From positions 1 through 13,425 of the forward strand of contig JAGWST010000007.1 of NCBI GenBank assembly GCA_028869325.1: DNA of 13,425 bases, in the 5' to 3' direction. The stretch comes from a bacterium. Lineage in GTDB: Bacteria > Vulcanimicrobiota > Vulcanimicrobiia > Vulcanimicrobiales > SCRA01. Made by a program: the position numbers and the translations under genes. The notes beneath the pieces are model-generated. The model did not search any database, was not told the origin of the DNA, and was given only the letters and a program-made list of their open reading frames with translations. Below are positions 3,629-11,087 of the stretch, piece after piece; the first letter of the stretch is position 1, and each line of letters opens with the position of its first letter.

Positions 3629-5089
3629 TCAGTGCAGGCTCCACTCGTTGCAGAAGTACGTGATCGGCACATAGTTTTGTACGTGGAAGTTCTTCACGCG
3701 CGGTCCTAGGCCGATACAATTCACCAACTGGGCGAGCGGCATCGTCACCGCGTTTTTCCACAGTATGCGGCTTGCCAGCTCAAAATCGTTGCTCGCAAGG
3801 GCTCGATCCAACTGCGGGCTGCAGAAACGCGAGAAGTTCTCTCCCTGATCGATGGCCGCACAGGAGAACGAGTCAGCGAGGCCCGGATCGCGGTTGTACG
3901 AAGCGCCGTCGAGCGCGAGATCGAAATGTCCGCCGTGCAAGGGACCGTTGGGCGCAAAGTACTCCTGCGGAGAAAACGTCTTGACTTCGAGGTCGATGCC
4001 GGCGGATCGAAGCTGCGCTTGCAAGAGCAGACCGATGTTATCTCCGAGTCCCGGCAGGCCCGCAAAGGTCAATTGAACGCTCTTGGGATAGAGTGACTGG
4101 AGCCTTTGTCGCACGCGTTCGGGGTCTGGTCTAATCTCCGGAACGCGAAGTGCGCCGGAGAGTTCCGGCGCGACGATCGTATTCGCCGGGAGGCCCCAGT
4201 CCCCGAGCGCCTTCCTGCGTAGCGCTTCGCGATTGATCGCGGAGAACGTCAATTCGCGCAGCCGAGCATCGGAGAGCACTCCGGAAACATTCGCGAACAG
4301 CATGAGCGCACCGCCGGTGTAGCGTGCGAAACGCAAGTGTCGAGACTCTACGAAGGCATGCGGAACGATCAGCGCGATGTCGTATTCGCCCGCCGCAAAG
4401 CCAACGGCCTCCGTATTCTGATCCGGGACGAAGGTATAACGGATTTCCGCTACGCTGCTAGGTCCCCGTGGCGATGACGACCAGGATTGCAGCGTGTAGG
4501 CCCCGGTTGAATTCGAGAAACCGCGGATGGCGAACGGGCCTGTACCTACCGGAGATCGCCCAGCGCGAACGAGCGGAAGATTTGGCTCGCCGTACGCCGA
4601 GAAGAAGCCAAACGGGAAGAGGGGGTCCGGGCGCTCGAGTGAGACGCGCACTCGATGGGGAGAAAGGGCTTCGACGCTGCGCACCAGCGAATATGGACGG
4701 TTGCCCCTCCAGCCGGAATCCTGGACGCGCTGGAAGGCAGCCACCACATCCCCGGCGGTGAAGGCAAGGCCGTCGTGCCAACGGACCCCACGCCGCAGTG
4801 TGTACGTTACCGCCAAGCCGTCCGGGCTGATCCCACCGTTTCTCGTCGTAGGAACTTGCTCGGCGAGCAGTCCTACCGGGCCGTGCCTGCCAACCCCAAC
4901 CAGGCCATCCGCGTAGAGCCAGGCCATGTCGCTCACAGCCGGCGTCTGAGTAGTGTACGGGTCCAGTACTGAGGAGTGCGCAAAGCCAGCCAGTCGCAAA
5001 ATGCTTCGCTCGGCCGCGCTGGCAGGCAATGAGGATCTCAGAGAAAGAGCGAACGCAGTGCACGCGGTCAGGAGCCGCCCGCGTGTCAT
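3629..5089 (-). CDS. ABC transporter substrate-binding protein, family 5 (peptide/opine/nickel type)
   Basis: The protein resembles extracellular solute-binding proteins of the SBP_bac_5 family, which capture oligopeptides and related ligands outside the membrane. Starting at the ATG at 5089 it has 486 residues and begins with an export signal: MTRGR, a hydrophobic stretch (LLTACTAFALSL) and a cleavage site near LPASAA. A longer frame from 5194 puts this signal 35 residues inside the protein and overlaps the divergent promoter region, so it is rejected. Family signatures include VTYTLRRGVRWHDG, FTAGDVVAAFQRV and VGTGPFAI. GGAAG lies about 5 bases before the ATG. No permease or ATPase gene is nearby, so it is an orphan and must share a transporter encoded elsewhere or act as a sensor. 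It is divergent from the methyltransferase gene of the YcaO/TfuA block. Confidence 0.88.
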   Translation of the reverse strand: MTRGRLLTACTAFALSLRSSLPASAAERSILRLAGFAHSSVLDPYTTQTPAVSDMAWLYADGLVGVGRHGPVGLLAEQVPTTRNGGISPDGLAVTYTLRRGVRWHDGLAFTAGDVVAAFQRVQDSGWRGNRPYSLVRSVEALSPHRVRVSLERPDPLFPFGFFSAYGEPNLPLVRAGRSPVGTGPFAIRGFSNSTGAYTLQSWSSSPRGPSSVAEIRYTFVPDQNTEAVGFAAGEYDIALIVPHAFVESRHLRFARYTGGALMLFANVSGVLSDARLRELTFSAINREALRRKALGDWGLPANTIVAPELSGALRVPEIRPDPERVRQRLQSLYPKSVQLTFAGLPGLGDNIGLLLQAQLRSAGIDLEVKTFSPQEYFAPNGPLHGGHFDLALDGASYNRDPGLADSFSCAAIDQGENFSRFCSPQLDRALASNDFELASRILWKNAVTMPLAQLVNCIGLGPRVKNFHVQNYVPITYFCNEWSLH

Positions 5090-5196: not shown

Positions 5197-5928
5197 ATGG
5201 GCTCGTCCAACTCTGGGGAGCGCAAGTTGTACTTCGAATCTCTGCACCAGCAGATCGACGACCGGCGTATCGACGCATACGCGCGCGCGATGGGATTCGT
5301 CTCGGGGATCGGCCGTCTCTCTCATCTGACAGACGATGTGCTCATCGATATTCTAAAGAAAGTCCATATCAGAAACGGTTTGAGGGTTCTCGATCTCGGA
5401 GCGGGCCGTGGTTTCCTGCCAAGATGGTTGAGCTGGCGCGGTATTGACATCGATTATGTCGGCATCGACTTCAGCGAATCGGCCATCGCCGCCGCGCGGC
5501 GGAATGCCCCCGGGAGCAGATTCGTTCAGACGGACTTCTTCGAACGACCTCAATTGGGCACCTTTGATTTAGTGTTTGCAATCGAGGCGACGGGGGATGG
5601 GTATGTTACCCCGGGTCTCGCGAATGTCATGCTCGAAGCACTACGGCCGGGTGGCATTGCTATTGCGACGATCGTGACCATTCGAGCGGGGTTCGACGAT
5701 GCGCTGGCCGACAGCCGCTCGGCGTTCGAAGCCCGCGGGGGCCGCGTCGTGCTCCGGGACTATACAGCCAAAACGGAGCCCTTCGTGAAGCGACTATGCG
5801 AGCTTGTGCTGGCCGACCCCGCCGGGCCGGGAGATCTGCGCGAAAAGTCCCAGACGGAGTCCTCGATGTTTCTTGCCTCTATCGAGAAAGGAACCTATGG
5901 CTACGCCGTGGCTATGGCGACGAAGTAA
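5197..5928 (+). CDS. Class I SAM-dependent methyltransferase
   Basis: The 243-residue protein has a Rossmann-type methyltransferase fold. Motif I, VLDLGAGRG, is at 64-72; the acidic residue at the end of strand 2 is Asp91 in YVGIDFSES; QTDFFE at 111-116 and FDLVFAIEA at 123-131 follow, then LRPGGIAIAT. An N-terminal helical extension of about 60 residues may bind substrate. The open frame extends to 5029, but that reaches into the divergent solute-binding gene; the ATG at 5197 with AAAGG about 12 bases upstream gives a normal N-terminus. The gene is convergent with ycaO, with a 17-bp gap. Its place beside YcaO and TfuA suggests it may methylate the modified peptide or its leader-derived terminus, but the acceptor (O, N, C or S) cannot be read from sequence. 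Confidence 0.88.
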   Translation: MGSSNSGERKLYFESLHQQIDDRRIDAYARAMGFVSGIGRLSHLTDDVLIDILKKVHIRNGLRVLDLGAGRGFLPRWLSWRGIDIDYVGIDFSESAIAAARRNAPGSRFVQTDFFERPQLGTFDLVFAIEATGDGYVTPGLANVMLEALRPGGIAIATIVTIRAGFDDALADSRSAFEARGGRVVLRDYTAKTEPFVKRLCELVLADPAGPGDLREKSQTESSMFLASIEKGTYGYAVAMATK

Positions 5929-5945
5929 CCGGCGTGCAGCGAGAA

Positions 5946-7223
5946 TCAGGCGCCGATGATCGATCTGATCGTCTTGCCGATGTGACCGTCGACGAGCGTT
6001 GATTCGAGATCCGGGACGAGGACGCGTGCGACCGAAACCGGGAGGTCCCGGGGCGAGATGTCGACCACAACCGCGCGCCGGATTCCCGCGTGCCTAAAGG
6101 CTTCGAGAACATCTCGAAGCTCCGCGGCGAGGCATGGCCGCGAACGGTCGCTTAGCGCGGAGTACGGCCGGCACGGTATCGGGGCATCGTAGTACCAGCG
6201 CCCCGAAGGCGCCACGGTCCTCCTTCGACCGTGGTGCCCAAACGCTTCGGAGGTCTCGCCTGGCCGAAGGAGATCCTCTCGGGCGCCTTGGATGTCGACC
6301 GATCGCGTCTGCGCCGCCTCGGTTATCGCTCGAAGCGCGGCCTGTCTTGGAGACCATGAGGCTCCGAGCCCGAAATGGCTCATTACGGGCTCCGTGCTTT
6401 CCTCATTGATACTTGCCATCATCACGGTGGGGAGGTTCGAGTCTTCTTGGGCCACGAGCCTCAAATCTAGCCCCGCTCGGCGGATCCTTTCGTACAGGTC
6501 GTCGAGAAGGTTGTCACCGGTTGGGAACGGCACGCGGTCGACCGCTGGATCGTCGACCATTTGTGAGACGTCGATCCGTTCGCCGATTCCGCGAGCCAAA
6601 GCCTCGAGAACCAAGCGCGGCCTGACGTGGGCCCTGGTGTGCGCGATTGCCCAGCCATGACGCTCAATGTATTCCATCAGCGCATGGTAAACTGCCTCTA
6701 GGAGGTTGTTGCCGGAAGCGAGGCCGTTGCTCGAACTCATGAGAAAGATGCGCTCGCCGTGCCAAGGGGATTTGACGGCAGCAAACGGCACGAGCACTCT
6801 CTGCTCGGAGAGCACATCGAGGCCTTCGACGAAATCGACCTCCTGGTCATAAACCGATTCGAGCATTCCCAAGCCCGAGAAGCCGATGTCCGGGCTGACT
6901 TCACGGGGCCTCAAACGGATCGTGGCAAGTTCGGCGTAGGCTCCGCATTGACGCTCGACGGCCTCCATGATCGCGCTGCACATCGCGTGATCGCGCGTGG
7001 GGCCCTTGCCGTTGTAGACGCTGATCGCGTCGGCGGAGTCCGGCACCACGGCGCAGAACGTCGGGATGCCGATACGGTCGAGTTCGGTGGTGTCACCGAT
7101 CCGGGTGATCCCGAAGCGTTGCCGGATCTGTGGCAACAGCTCCAGCGTCTCGATGAGAGGGCAGGTTCTGTCCTCCGAGTTGGCGGTTTTGGGCGCCGAC
7201 TCCGGGAGCCAAGGGATGGCCAT
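5946..7223 (-). CDS. ycaO: YcaO-domain protein, probable TfuA-dependent thioamide synthetase
   Basis: YcaO enzymes use ATP to activate a peptide backbone amide, giving azolines, amidines or, with TfuA, thioamides. The 425-residue protein shows the YcaO ATP-binding signatures: YNGKGPT at 70-76, SAIMEAVER at 83-91, NGLASGNN at 166-173 and EAVYHALMEYIER at 176-188, with all key glutamates kept. It ends in IIGA and lacks the proline-rich PxPxP tail of azoline-forming YcaOs, which fits a TfuA partner rather than a cyclodehydratase. No E1-like or F-protein gene for azole formation is in the window, while a TfuA homologue lies 3 kb away. The ATG at 7223 gives a normal N-terminus; its ribosome-binding site is weak. 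It is divergent from the LuxR ATPase regulator. Thioamidation is inferred from the YcaO-TfuA pairing. Confidence 0.92.
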   Translation of the reverse strand: MAIPWLPESAPKTANSEDRTCPLIETLELLPQIRQRFGITRIGDTTELDRIGIPTFCAVVPDSADAISVYNGKGPTRDHAMCSAIMEAVERQCGAYAELATIRLRPREVSPDIGFSGLGMLESVYDQEVDFVEGLDVLSEQRVLVPFAAVKSPWHGERIFLMSSSNGLASGNNLLEAVYHALMEYIERHGWAIAHTRAHVRPRLVLEALARGIGERIDVSQMVDDPAVDRVPFPTGDNLLDDLYERIRRAGLDLRLVAQEDSNLPTVMMASINEESTEPVMSHFGLGASWSPRQAALRAITEAAQTRSVDIQGAREDLLRPGETSEAFGHHGRRRTVAPSGRWYYDAPIPCRPYSALSDRSRPCLAAELRDVLEAFRHAGIRRAVVVDISPRDLPVSVARVLVPDLESTLVDGHIGKTIRSIIGA

Positions 7224-7335
7224 GCGGTTTGGTTCTCACGCCTTGGCGACCCGCCTGCTTGAGCCCGGCAGCCCTAGTCACAAAGCGGGATGCCCGCATT
7301 GCCCGCTCGAATCACTGCTCGGAGAGGAATCATAC
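7224..7335. promoter_or_regulatory. Divergent promoter region between ycaO and the LuxR ATPase gene, with a short dyad
   Basis: This 112-bp spacer separates the ATG of ycaO (7223, minus) from the preferred GTG of the regulator (7336, plus). It contains the inverted repeat GCGGG-ATG-CCCGC at 7285-7297 and a direct repeat TGCCCGC at 7291-7297 and 7300-7306, set 9 bp apart. GGAGAGG at 7321-7327 is a strong ribosome-binding site for the GTG at 7336. No convincing -35/-10 pair was recognised. That the repeats bind the adjacent regulator is inference. Confidence 0.4.
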
Positions 7336-10056
7336 GTGATCGTTGGCTCTCAACAGAGACTCATCGGTCGGAATCGTGAGGTGGCATGGGTCACCTCAGA
7401 GGTACGCCGATCGTGGGTGGAAAGAAGGGCTCGCGTCACCGGAATCGACGGGGCATCCGGCATCGGTAAGACCGCGCTTCTCAACGCAGTCATCGGTGAA
7501 CTTTGTTCCGAGCAAGCCTTGACGCTACGAGTGACCTGTTACGAGGGGCAGGCGACGGCGCCACGCGCCGCCCTAGATCGCTTGATCGCCTCCGGACTCG
7601 CTGAGCTCGACGCCCCCATCCGCTCGCGCTACGCTGGAGGGCTTGAGGGCCCGTTGGCGTCGCTGGGGCTTGCATCGCAGCGGATACTGAATTACGAGCC
7701 TGCCGGTACAACCGTTGACGCAGATCTCTCGGATCGTGCATCTCTTCGCCTGCTCGACGGTCTGTTGCTGGACTACGCTGTGCTGGTCGTCCTCGACGAT
7801 GCGCAGTGGCTCGATCCGGAGACGGCACGCTTTCTCACGCGTCTGCCCGTTGGCCGAGAGGAAAGGCCGCTCCACATGCTGATCTCGGAGCGAGAGCGAG
7901 GTACCGCGCCGTTCAATCTGTTGACCCGTCACACGCAGTTTCACATTGGGGAGCTCGATCCCGATGCTTCAGCGATTCTGGTCAAAAGTGTCTACGGTGA
8001 GTGCAGCGATGACGTAATCGCCGCAATCGTATCGTATGGGCAGGGCATTCCGGTGCAGATCGTCGCCATTGCCTCTCAAGCCGCTCAAGACCACGCTACG
8101 CAGGCAGACGATATCGCACGGAGCGTCGGCGCCGTGTGTCAACGCGAGATTAACGCCATGCCAGAGAACGCGCGAGCGTTTCTCCAGCTATGTGCGCTCC
8201 TTATGCAGCCTGTTGAGTATAGGGTTTTGCGGTCATTGTTCAACTCGGATCTGGAGGCCGCAAGCGCCATTTCGCCGCTTATGGGCCGGTACTTGGAGGT
8301 GAAAGACGGCTGGTTTCAATTCTGCCACGACGCAGTACAACAGGCGATCCAACAGACGATCGTCCTACCTTCCGTTCACCAATCCCGAATCTTGGAGGCG
8401 ATACTACGCATCGAGGGGGACTCACCGGAGCTGTGGCGGCGCATCGTCTACCACGCCAGGGAGTGCGGTCGACGCGACCTTGAACGCAGTTTCGTCCTCA
8501 AGATCGCGGAGGATGCGCTCGATGCGTCAGCATGGGACGCTGCAGTCGCGAGCTACGAGAGGGCGCTGGCCATTCGTGAACCGGAGGCGGCGGAGCACGT
8601 CGCGTTCTATACCGGGTATGGCCAGGCTCTACGGGCTCAACTTCGGCTCTCGGATAGTCAAACGGTTCTTGAGCGCGCGATCATGCGGGGGCGGCGGATC
8701 GGCCTCAGTGCCGGCTTCGGCCCGCTTGCCGTCTCGCTGGTTGCTACGGCCGCGACGTTGAGCGACTTTGACTTTGCCGAGCATGTCTACCGAGACGTGA
8801 CAGCGCTTTTGGCCAATGCTCGGGAAAGACTCGATATGACCGCCGTCATGGCGGTTATGTACGCGCTCGAATTCCGCGAAGAGCAGTATCTCGAGGTTCG
8901 CGCGATCCTGGATCGCAACGTGGACGTACTCTCCGACATGGCCGCGACGTACGCGACGATCGCGGAGGCGATTGTGTCCTGCCGGTCAGGGGACTTCGAT
9001 CGCGCGCGCCAATTGTTTCGTGTGGCGAAGCTACGCGCCGATACGAAGAGGTCTGTTCAGGCGTTGGGAATTGAGAGCCAGATGATCATCGAAGCAGCGG
9101 TGACGACCGGCTGGGCGAGTGCTCGGGAGCGGCTGACGGCGTTCCTCAGCCGATATGGAACTCCGAGCCGCAGATTGGTTGGAACGATCGAAGTGCTGCT
9201 TGACTTCATGAGTGGAGCTTGGGATGCAGCGCGCGCGGCAATCGGGGAGGCCGATCAAACGAAGATAGATCGGGCGGAGCCCGGTTTCCTTAGCGTCGGG
9301 CTCGCTATCGATACGCTGACGGGAAATTCGACAATCGATCTGGCGGCGGCTGAGTTGAGTTGGCGGCAAGAGCTGGAATACGGCCGCTGGAATTCCGCCG
9401 CGCTGCTGGGTTCGTGGCTGCTCGCTGTCCGCGGTGAGAGAAACGACGCCGCTGTCACTCGAGTCTTGGAGGCGCTTGGCAGAGTCGGAGCGGGGTCACT
9501 TGCGTGGAATCTGTCGTTTGGCGCGACGGCGCCCTTGGCTCTGGCCCTCTACGTAGACTTGGCTAACGACGAAGCTGTCCGTGGGTGGGTTAGGCGGCAG
9601 CCGGAGCCAAGAGACCGGACTCCCTGGTATCGCGCGAATTATCTCCTTGCCCAAGGGATCGTTCGCGCACCAGGCCAGAAACCAGAAGCGCTTGCGCTGA
9701 TCCATGAAGCGGAAGACATCTTCCGCTCTTTGCAAGCAGCTCCGCTTGCGGCTATTGCAGCGGAGCGCGGCGGGCACGCGACCGGGCAGGAGCGAGCGCT
9801 CCTGCGAGAACTAGGCGTCCTCGGGAACTCCAAGTCGAAGCGACGCGGAAAAGGAGCGGGGACCGCGACGCGCGAGATCCTCTCGCGGAGAGAGCTGGAG
9901 ATCGCAGAGTTGGTCGCCTCCGGCGCCGCGAACCGCGAGATCGCTAGTTCTCTCTTCCTTAGCGAGCGTACCGTCGAGGCACACCTCGGGAACATCTTCC
10001 GCAAGATCGAGGTCAATTCGAGGGCCCAGCTTACGCGCTGGTTCGTCTTGCGGTAG
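7336..10056 (+). CDS. Large ATP-binding LuxR-family transcriptional regulator (AAA ATPase + TPR-like middle + GerE helix-turn-helix)
   Basis: This 906-residue protein has the MalT/LAL layout: an N-terminal AAA ATPase, a long helical TPR-like sensor region and a C-terminal LuxR DNA-binding domain. Walker A is GASGIGKT at 39-46, Walker B VLVVLDDAQW at 149-158, and the GerE-type domain occupies 849-906 (SRRELEIAELVASG, NREIASSLFLSERTVEAHL). The open frame reaches back to 7066, inside the opposing ycaO gene. The GTG at 7336 has GGAGAGG 8 bases upstream and places the usual LIGRNREV segment at the N-terminus, so it is preferred; ATGs at 7216 or 7222 would add about 40 residues containing CPHC. Such regulators bind ATP and an inducer, then activate transcription. 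Sitting between ycaO and the tfuA unit, it is the likely pathway-specific activator, though the inducer is unknown. Confidence 0.92.
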   Translation: MIVGSQQRLIGRNREVAWVTSEVRRSWVERRARVTGIDGASGIGKTALLNAVIGELCSEQALTLRVTCYEGQATAPRAALDRLIASGLAELDAPIRSRYAGGLEGPLASLGLASQRILNYEPAGTTVDADLSDRASLRLLDGLLLDYAVLVVLDDAQWLDPETARFLTRLPVGREERPLHMLISERERGTAPFNLLTRHTQFHIGELDPDASAILVKSVYGECSDDVIAAIVSYGQGIPVQIVAIASQAAQDHATQADDIARSVGAVCQREINAMPENARAFLQLCALLMQPVEYRVLRSLFNSDLEAASAISPLMGRYLEVKDGWFQFCHDAVQQAIQQTIVLPSVHQSRILEAILRIEGDSPELWRRIVYHARECGRRDLERSFVLKIAEDALDASAWDAAVASYERALAIREPEAAEHVAFYTGYGQALRAQLRLSDSQTVLERAIMRGRRIGLSAGFGPLAVSLVATAATLSDFDFAEHVYRDVTALLANARERLDMTAVMAVMYALEFREEQYLEVRAILDRNVDVLSDMAATYATIAEAIVSCRSGDFDRARQLFRVAKLRADTKRSVQALGIESQMIIEAAVTTGWASARERLTAFLSRYGTPSRRLVGTIEVLLDFMSGAWDAARAAIGEADQTKIDRAEPGFLSVGLAIDTLTGNSTIDLAAAELSWRQELEYGRWNSAALLGSWLLAVRGERNDAAVTRVLEALGRVGAGSLAWNLSFGATAPLALALYVDLANDEAVRGWVRRQPEPRDRTPWYRANYLLAQGIVRAPGQKPEALALIHEAEDIFRSLQAAPLAAIAAERGGHATGQERALLRELGVLGNSKSKRRGKGAGTATREILSRRELEIAELVASGAANREIASSLFLSERTVEAHLGNIFRKIEVNSRAQLTRWFVLR

Positions 10057-10065
10057 GTCTGCGGC

Positions 10066-10359
10066 CTACTTGTTGAAAGACCCGATGATGACGCCCGCGA
10101 GCATCATCTCATAGTGTTCGGGAGAATGCTGCTTCATCGCATCGAGGAGGGGTTTGACGAGCTCCTCGCCATGCTGAAGCATGCCGCGGACGTCGTCCTT
10201 GGTAGGAGCTTGTGGAAGGCCGAGATGCTTCTGCACGAGTTGAGCGATAGCGCTGTAGTCGCTCTTATCGACTGCTGTATACTCCGCTCGCGCTTGAGGA
10301 TTCGTCATCAGATGTCCGAGATACCGCGTCGCAAGCTCGTGAAGCTCGTCGTTTGTCAT
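10066..10359 (-). CDS. Small cysteine-free protein, candidate RiPP precursor for the YcaO/TfuA pair
   Basis: I do not recognise a named family. The 97-residue protein begins MTNDELHELATRYLGHLMTN and is mostly charged and helical through about residue 84, then ends in a short hydrophobic, glycine-containing tail (MMLAGVIIGSFNK). It has no cysteine, so YcaO thiazoline chemistry on cysteine is impossible, but backbone thioamidation would not need one. The middle (NPQARAEY, SDYSAIAQLVQKHLGL, then PTKDDVRGML) loosely resembles Nif11-type leaders, and LAG before the tail resembles a GG-type leader end; both are impressions by eye. The ATG at 10359 has GGGAG 8 bases upstream. The gene follows tfuA on the same strand by 56 bp and is convergent with the regulator, with a 9-bp gap. 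It could instead be an accessory binding protein. Coding is likely; the role is inferred. Confidence 0.8.
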   Translation of the reverse strand: MTNDELHELATRYLGHLMTNPQARAEYTAVDKSDYSAIAQLVQKHLGLPQAPTKDDVRGMLQHGEELVKPLLDAMKQHSPEHYEMMLAGVIIGSFNK

Positions 10360-10415
10360 AGTGATGGCTCCCGTCGTTACTGAGCAGGCACCAGGGCTAA
10401 GATTGCCCAGATATT

Positions 10416-11066
10416 CTACGCCACAATAGGGCCCCCTCCGGCGAATCGTTCGTTGCGGGAGAGGTATCTGAGTGTCGCGCGCGCGTCCCAGCGTTTGAGG
10501 TCACCTTCGTTATGTGCAATGGCGCCAAGCAAATGCCGTGCGGCAGACGGGGCATGTTCGAGTGCTGTATCCCATGACCGTTCCATATAGTAGACGCTGC
10601 GCGCTCCGGTAATGAAGGCATCGCTCTCCGCGGCAGTGAGGAGTCCGCGGCGCCTGGCGAGCCAGGCCACGTATCGCACGTTTACGGAAGGCACGGTCAG
10701 CGCGCGGTGGCTCTCGGGGTGTACGAGCACCGCTACCTCATCGTCGCCGTCGATCACCTCGTGGATGTACCAGCGTGCGATCGCGCCCACCGGCCGTAAC
10801 CCGTACGGCCAGCACTCGGCCGCCCGCAGTGCCCCCATGCTTGCCGCGCCGATCATCGGCACGCGCCGGCAAGCGGCAAGGCACTCCTTCGGCGAGGGGG
10901 CGAGGTCGTGGTGAAAGACACCATCGATCAAAACGATGGCGTCGTAGGCTTCCGCGGCCGCCGCGACATCACCACGGCTTGCCGGTAAGAGATACTCCAC
11001 GCCCGGGGCTTCGATCCGATCATCCGGCGGCAGAGAAGGGCCCGCAAAGACTGCAATTCGCTTCAG
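10416..11066 (-). CDS. tfuA: TfuA-like protein, partner of YcaO in thioamidation
   Basis: TfuA-like proteins work with YcaO to put sulfur into peptide backbones, probably by delivering or releasing sulfide; the name comes from the Rhizobium trifolitoxin locus. Hallmarks are IVLIDGVFHHDLAPSPKE, the core VPMIGAASMGALRAAE and DGDDEVAVLVHPE. The first ordinary start is GTG at 11000 (194 residues), but the reading frame upstream still encodes the typical N-terminal strand RIAVFAGPSLPPDD. No ATG, GTG or TTG lies between the upstream stop and 11000. A CTG at 11066-11064 has GAGGT (11077-11073) 6 bases upstream and would give 216 residues, so this extent is used here; ATT at 11057 is an alternative. 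A TATGAT box at 11101-11096 fits as its -10. The gene leads a two-gene unit with the 97-residue protein. Confidence 0.9.
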   Translation of the reverse strand: MKRIAVFAGPSLPPDDRIEAPGVEYLLPASRGDVAAAAEAYDAIVLIDGVFHHDLAPSPKECLAACRRVPMIGAASMGALRAAECWPYGLRPVGAIARWYIHEVIDGDDEVAVLVHPESHRALTVPSVNVRYVAWLARRRGLLTAAESDAFITGARSVYYMERSWDTALEHAPSAARHLLGAIAHNEGDLKRWDARATLRYLSRNERFAGGGPIVA

Positions 11067-11087
11067 GAGCGCACCTCTACGCCGGCC

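Follow-up and report, generated by a model that had tools for sequence, protein, structure and literature searches.

The DNA window analyzed here, a whole contig (C515) of 13425 bases, belongs to a 2.53-Mb metagenome-assembled genome (MAG) of the Eremiobacterota that is 82% complete. It carries a group of genes, hereafter called the cassette, that we consider a candidate thioamide-type pathway for a ribosomally synthesized and post-translationally modified peptide (RiPP). A first-pass annotation of this DNA had named five genes here, encoding a YcaO protein, a TfuA-like protein, an S-adenosylmethionine (SAM) methyltransferase, a LuxR ATPase regulator, and a small helical protein, and each was recovered in place when calls from a list of open reading frames were combined with Pfam scans of nine window proteins and with NCBIfam scans (Table 1). 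The small protein belongs to a family that we term F1. The YcaO and TfuA genes are the sole copies detected in the genome to which the window belongs, and the grouping of the genes is not a matter of chance, since relatives have them side by side as well.

Table 1. Features of the cassette and its border in the window
Feature	Position	Strand	Basis
Class I SAM methyltransferase	5197..5928	+	Methyltransf_31 6.4e-12; general Pfam methyltransferase families
YcaO	5946..7223	-	PF02624 4.6e-51; 6pe3 1.6e-31; tree
STAND-ATPase LuxR-type regulator	7219..10056	+	AAA_16 plus GerE
F1, candidate RiPP precursor, 97 aa, helical leader and short C-terminal tail	10066..10359	-	Family; AlphaFold2 model; multi-core relatives
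Probable core of F1, LAGVIIGSFNK	10069..10101	-	Boundary placed by alignment with VG-containing tails and the repeated cores of the G022 relative
TfuA, CTG start at 11066	10416..11066	-	PF07812 1.8e-29; 6xp8 2.8e-24; start read from sequence
GAGGTG, ribosome-binding-site-like, upstream of the TfuA CTG	11072..11077	-	Read from sequence
SBP_bac_5 oligopeptide-type binding protein, likely signal peptide (read from sequence)	3629..5089	-	PF00496

The recurrence of the cassette was assessed in 27 loci collected via TfuA, from 26 Eremiobacterota genomes and one alphaproteobacterium, and an F1 gene (about 95 codons, the family that includes the window's small protein) lay in the neighborhood at 23 of them. 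Two of the remaining four come from genomes in which TfuA sits on a separate contig and YcaO, F1, the methyltransferase, and LuxR are grouped away from it (L099 and L100 in G018 and G025), and the other two, G050 and the alphaproteobacterial locus L057, have other types of TfuA. A search of the phylum found F1 in 27 of 149 genomes, TfuA in 29, and both in 25 (Fisher p 4.8e-22, kinship ignored), and the 11 genera bearing F1 were all among the 15 bearing TfuA. F1 occurred without TfuA only in G059 and G103, where both contigs break off inside YcaO; TfuA occurred without F1 in G050, G065, G132, and G112. The last of these has a weaker F1 match (1.3e-6) 800 bp from TfuA, for which the improved score under a wider model is by construction, as that model contains the sequence; with G112 counted, 28 genomes have F1. 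The first-pass annotation had allowed that the neighboring genes might prove not to be conserved, yet YcaO lies on the contig of F1 in 28/28 genomes (43-4183 bp apart), TfuA in 24/28 (up to 2.3 kb apart), LuxR in 25/28 (convergent with F1, 10-156 bp apart), and the methyltransferase in 22/28. The methyltransferase of the annotation is an optional member: its orthologues adjoin the cassette in G002, G018, G025, and G112, whereas the DNA retrieved around F1 showed none in G001, G008, G023, G042, G097, and G098. Gene order and strand are shuffled among genomes while the set is kept together, which argues for a function. TfuA and YcaO share a single open frame in 11 genomes; TfuA-YcaO fusions have also been reported in Burkholderia thailandensis (PMC8120280). 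Three other neighbors were considered and not retained as cassette members: a peroxiredoxin (F4, 15 of 27 loci); a thioredoxin-like protein (F3, 17 of 27), excluded because it was matched in 58/61 relatives, strongly even where TfuA was not found; and an OPT peptide transporter, which is near the cassette in 7/28 genomes, present in 46/61 relatives, and not found in the window's own genome.

At least 33 complete F1 members were identified in the 28 Eremiobacterota genomes, and in their alignment a short C-terminal tail follows a helical part that is conserved. The AlphaFold2 (AF2) model of the window's member contains five helices, with a mean predicted local distance difference test score (pLDDT) of 87.3 and values below 50 for the final six residues. 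Between TfuA and YcaO of genome G022, on the same strand, a relative (L023:9597-10061) encodes an F1 leader followed by five near-identical units of the SHVGxxFVVQxDAP type, which Tandem Repeats Finder reports with a period of 42 and 3.9-4.7 copies; in its AF2 model the leader is helical and the repeat region scores 29-47 per ten-residue block. Two cores are found in a member from G102 (L098:3144-3515), and three consecutive F1 genes in G023. The tails diverge strongly between genera and the leader is retained. By these sequence criteria F1 is likely a RiPP precursor with a leader and a variable core, because a confidently modeled helical domain precedes a disordered tail and because the five-core relative exists; the annotation had not proposed this role for the small protein. 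The suggestion of the annotation that the substrate is a peptide therefore gains support from the F1 family, above all from its five-core member, the chemistry itself being a prediction. At the aligned core position 26 of the 33 complete members have a glycine, preceded by V, I, or L in 23, by A in two (the window and G002), and by N in one. As a separate observation, the G022 locus (L023, 8908-13849) holds two YcaO genes, which fall in separate tree branches, and two precursors, one of them the five-core gene.

Neither Pfam nor NCBIfam yielded a family for F1 at E 0.1, and no curated family covers it. A scan with Nif11 (PF07862) hit 1 of 24 members at E 0.0089, and hhalign gave a probability of 35% against seven Nif11 proteins; the window's own genome yielded no Nif11 match. 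Profile searches of 5.8 billion proteins returned 25 and 15 matches, with the window's own protein within both. Five matches in the 25-match search carry an organism name, namely three 'Dormibacteraeota', one Vulcanimicrobiaceae, and one Baltobacteraceae. As most matches are without an organism name, a spread beyond the phylum is possible.

The best PDB matches of the window YcaO were 6pe3 (M. jannaschii YcaO, 1.6e-31) and 6ci7, the Methanopyrus kandleri YcaO. The alignment with 6pe3 runs across the stretches that bear the ATP-binding glutamates and, together with the PF02624 match (4.6e-51), agrees with the earlier description of a YcaO with ATP-binding motifs. In a tree of 52 rows, with partial archaeal rows, the cassette YcaOs and 16 database relatives formed one clade of 40 rows (support 100/100), sister (93/84) to the archaeal McrA-thioamidating YcaOs of M. 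jannaschii and Methanopyrus kandleri; long branches, together with the incompleteness of the archaeal sequences, make this sister relation tentative. Outside the clade fell the TfuA-linked YcaOs of Rhizobium, Streptomyces, the alphaproteobacterium, G050, G065, and G132, as well as E. coli YcaO, whose very long row lies far from the cassette enzymes. The window YcaO scored under the curated cut-off of each model considered, with 208.9 bits against 365 for TIGR03266 (McrA-glycine thioamidation), 18.3 against 700 for NF040716 (the E. coli YcaO/uL16 group), and 92.2 against 219 for TIGR03604 (SagD-type, azole-forming cyclodehydratases of thiazole/oxazole-modified microcins). The first-pass annotation had held that clustering with non-peptide or RimO-linked YcaOs would speak against its reading; the enzyme is indeed far from E. 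coli YcaO, but its sister group is protein-modifying, and since these nearest YcaOs thioamidate McrA, the tree alone is no proof of a peptide substrate. Neither this condition nor that on the neighboring genes turned out against the annotation. Two database YcaOs labeled Verrucomicrobiae (P0110 and P0137) were also placed inside the cassette clade, through either transfer or mislabeled MAGs.

TfuA matched 6xp8 (2.8e-24) and scored best with the McrA-linked TfuA model NF033432, at 150 bits, under the cut-off of 235. Its first ATG, GTG, or TTG codon is the GTG at 11000, from which the protein would be 22 residues shorter and would lose the conserved N-terminus; translation most likely starts at the CTG at 11066, behind GAGGTG. 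Callers restricted to ATG, GTG, and TTG would trim the protein by these 22 residues. Thioamide-forming YcaOs outside high-sulfide settings are described as tending toward a thiocarboxylated ThiS-type carrier with a TfuA hydrolase (PMC13063428), and the window's own genome has two ThiS-family genes, away from the locus. The methyltransferase gave general class I matches only. As the annotation had noted for the window, no methyl-coenzyme M reductase (MCR) was detected: a search of the whole genome did not find the MCR alpha gene, an absence that is no proof in a MAG that is 82% complete.

Gene identities, conserved linkage, the division of F1 into leader and tail, and the tandem cores of a relative are all observed, and on this base we consider it probable that the locus makes a thioamidated RiPP with F1 as its precursor. 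Backbone thioamidation by YcaO and TfuA has been established in other systems (PMC5589413, PMC6511847, PMC13174530). From the sequences we infer a route whose steps, in their presumed order, would be as follows. The folded helical part of F1, as the substrate, would act as a leader bound by the YcaO-TfuA pair, and YcaO with ATP would activate a backbone amide in the short C-terminal core. Sulfur, which a ThiS-type carrier with a gene outside the locus probably provides, would then be delivered by TfuA to replace the oxygen; the likeliest site is the conserved glycine, which stands in a VG pair in most relatives and in an AG pair in the window. Genomes that have the methyltransferase may use it to methylate the core; cleavage and export would fall to genes outside the locus; the convergent STAND-type LuxR protein would govern expression, and the product itself may have a role of the kind considered below.

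Several points weigh against this interpretation. No thioamide has been observed, the work being confined to sequence, and the nearest YcaOs of solved structure have a protein as their substrate. The F1 family was drawn up from the surroundings of TfuA, so that part of its co-occurrence with TfuA follows from the definition, although the genome search was free to detect F1 on its own; this happened only in G059 and G103. Among the neighbor families identified, neither a protease nor an exporter recurred, not every neighbor having been scanned. The aligned glycine is missing in 7 of 33 F1 proteins (G001, G018, two in G025, G097, G098, and G112), and the tails in G018, G025, and G112 are of a different type. 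Finally, no diversifying selection was seen on the core, with ratios of nonsynonymous to synonymous polymorphism (pN/pS) among eight close relatives of 0.20 in the core versus 0.17 in the leader, or 0.16 and 0.13 without L043.

Some of these points would suit an alternative in which F1 is a stable small protein whose tail is thioamidated by YcaO-TfuA and which then acts itself, for example as a ligand or partner of the LuxR ATPase. The high-confidence fold, the purifying selection on both leader and tail, the protein substrates of the nearest YcaOs, the lack of a linked protease or exporter that recurs among the families identified, and a convergent regulator that always adjoins F1 where the contig permits (25 LuxR, 2 XRE-type) are consistent with such a role. 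We nevertheless judge it unlikely, as the five tandem cores in G022 and the two in G102 fit released peptides, and genera that share the leader have strongly divergent tails. The same tandem-core members speak against the view that YcaO-TfuA targets a housekeeping protein encoded elsewhere, with F1 merely accompanying it as a regulator or helper. This view has precedents in E. coli YcaO, which thioamidates ribosomal protein uL16, and in the archaeal YcaO that acts on McrA (PMC13063428, PMC5589413), but it appears very unlikely here: only a minor part of the phylum has the cassette (27/149 genomes with F1), unlike a core housekeeping modification, the E. coli-type model gave only 18 bits, and no MCR gene was detected in the window's own genome.

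The bond that is installed could also differ from a thioamide. YcaO enzymes also form azolines and amidines, and the last nine residues contain C, S, or T in 21 of 33 F1 tails, the window's included, so that an azol(in)e or another YcaO product might be envisaged. In the other 12 tails (that of G098 has a cysteine just ahead of these nine residues) azolines cannot form at these positions, which favors thioamides over azoles. Moreover, the SagD-type model stayed under its cut-off (92 against 219 bits), the nine window proteins scanned include neither an E1-like partner nor a dehydrogenase, and the YcaO-TfuA pair is linked to thioamides (PMC8120280, PMC6511847), all of which makes this chemistry highly improbable.

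A regulator of the STAND (signal transduction ATPases with numerous domains) type is convergent with F1 in 27/28 genomes, that is, wherever the contig covers that side. Twenty-five of these are LuxR proteins, and an XRE-type STAND ATPase regulator takes the place of LuxR in G098 (L055:12150-14639), with a homologue, by clustering, in G097 (L053:9029-11509); the contig of G056 stops on the regulator side. Alignments of the window's LuxR frame with its homologues begin near residue 45, so that the true start may be the GTG at 7336. The Pfam scan placed Fic, a sorbosone-dehydrogenase-like protein, and the SBP_bac_5 protein on one flank of the cassette and a TPR protein on the other, and ornithine-cyclodeaminase-like, carbonic anhydrase, HSP20, and Lon genes were named from sequence alone; TPR, HSP20, and Lon adjoin TfuA in G001 and G002 too. 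Orthologues of the SBP_bac_5 gene border the cassette in four genomes (window 3629-5089, L028:1793-3433, L032:13987-15555, and L099:8503-10389), and the window protein groups (100/99) with the cassette-side proteins of G001, G002, and G018, to the exclusion of ten paralogues from its own genome and the cassette-side protein of G042; none was found in L100 (G025) or L116 (G112). The window's genome has 14 SBP_bac_5 matches, so that one of them might adjoin the cassette by chance; that the proteins are orthologous in four genomes speaks against this, and the binding protein may capture the peptide product. We give a low probability to an autoinduction circuit in which a thioamidated signal or metal-binding peptide, made from a helical leader family new to the literature, is recaptured by the linked periplasmic binding protein and read by the LuxR ATPase. 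A protein of about 120 aa without a Pfam match (F7), which may be a PAS-like sensor as judged by eye, lies near the cassette in 17/28 genomes (e.g., L024:3336-3716 and L030:8480-8737). Apart from the cassette, another TfuA locus in G065 (C3:327084-327956; L121, L115) has a Nif11-domain gene about 370 bp before TfuA and is a separate candidate thioamide cluster.

A RefSeq survey of April 2020 counted 613 TfuA cluster families and 797 precursor families, with 70% of unique TfuA clusters in Proteobacteria and 24% in Actinobacteria, and its main text names neither Eremiobacter- nor WPS-2 (PMC8120280). RiPP-rich marine Eremiobacterota are already known, in a paper whose main text contains no thioamide, YcaO, or TfuA term (PMC9259500), and PMC11834409 has no thioamide terms. 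A 2026 preprint describes a new class of YcaO-TfuA-modified RiPPs beside the four that it counts as characterized (PMC13174530). Our literature search, which left most subscription journals outside its reach, found no report of F1 or of a thioamide pathway in Eremiobacterota/Vulcanimicrobi, in line with the annotation's description of an undescribed thioamide-type RiPP system, its chemistry being predicted. The locus is best read as a pathway of a known kind but of a new family, which has a precursor family and a regulator of its own and, in one branch, a binding protein. It would offer a further YcaO-TfuA RiPP family with a clonable precursor and a five-core relative whose products should be easily seen by mass. 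If correct, this reading places a thioamide pathway in an uncultured phylum with no such report found, and it would mean that the YcaOs nearest the McrA type act on small peptides, which bears on the relationship between protein and peptide thioamidation.

Thioamitides of the thioviridamide type have decarboxylase and kinase/lyase genes and a C-terminal cysteine for an AviCys-type ring. The locus resembles them in its methyltransferase and its predicted YcaO-TfuA thioamidation, but Pfam found no decarboxylase or kinase/lyase among the nine window proteins, and the window core LAGVIIGSFNK has no cysteine. By models and tree, the closest relatives of both YcaO and TfuA are those that form the McrA thioglycine of methanogens (TIGR03266, NF033432; PMC5589413); here, in contrast, both proteins score under the curated cut-offs, no MCR gene was detected, and a precursor family is linked. 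M. jannaschii and Methanopyrus kandleri have the McrA thioglycine though they lack TfuA (PMC5589413). Plasmid clusters of Streptomyces and Rhizobium (L111, L112, L110, L113) have TfuA and YcaO adjacent as in the cassette, and both Streptomyces plasmids (L111, L112) continue with a class I SAM methyltransferase and have small hypothetical genes ahead of TfuA; their YcaOs fall outside the cassette clade, and one gene of the Rhizobium johnstonii cluster bears the annotation of a Nif11-like precursor. The thiovarsolins of Streptomyces varsoviensis (varA-varY-varT) share with the locus a YcaO-TfuA pair within a small gene set and, by description, a precursor family whose members have anything between one core and five imperfect repeats (PMC6511847). 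As varA, varY, and varT alone suffice for thiovarsolin B (PMC6511847), the lack of a decarboxylase, kinase, protease, or exporter is not unusual by itself: the annotation was right that a decarboxylase and kinase are absent, among the nine proteins scanned, but this by itself does not set the architecture apart. The differences from the thiovarsolins lie in the phylum, in the heme-oxygenase-like VarO, which has no counterpart among the nine window proteins scanned, and in what this locus has, namely an F1 leader that is about 80 residues long, a regulator of the STAND type, and a methyltransferase that is optional.

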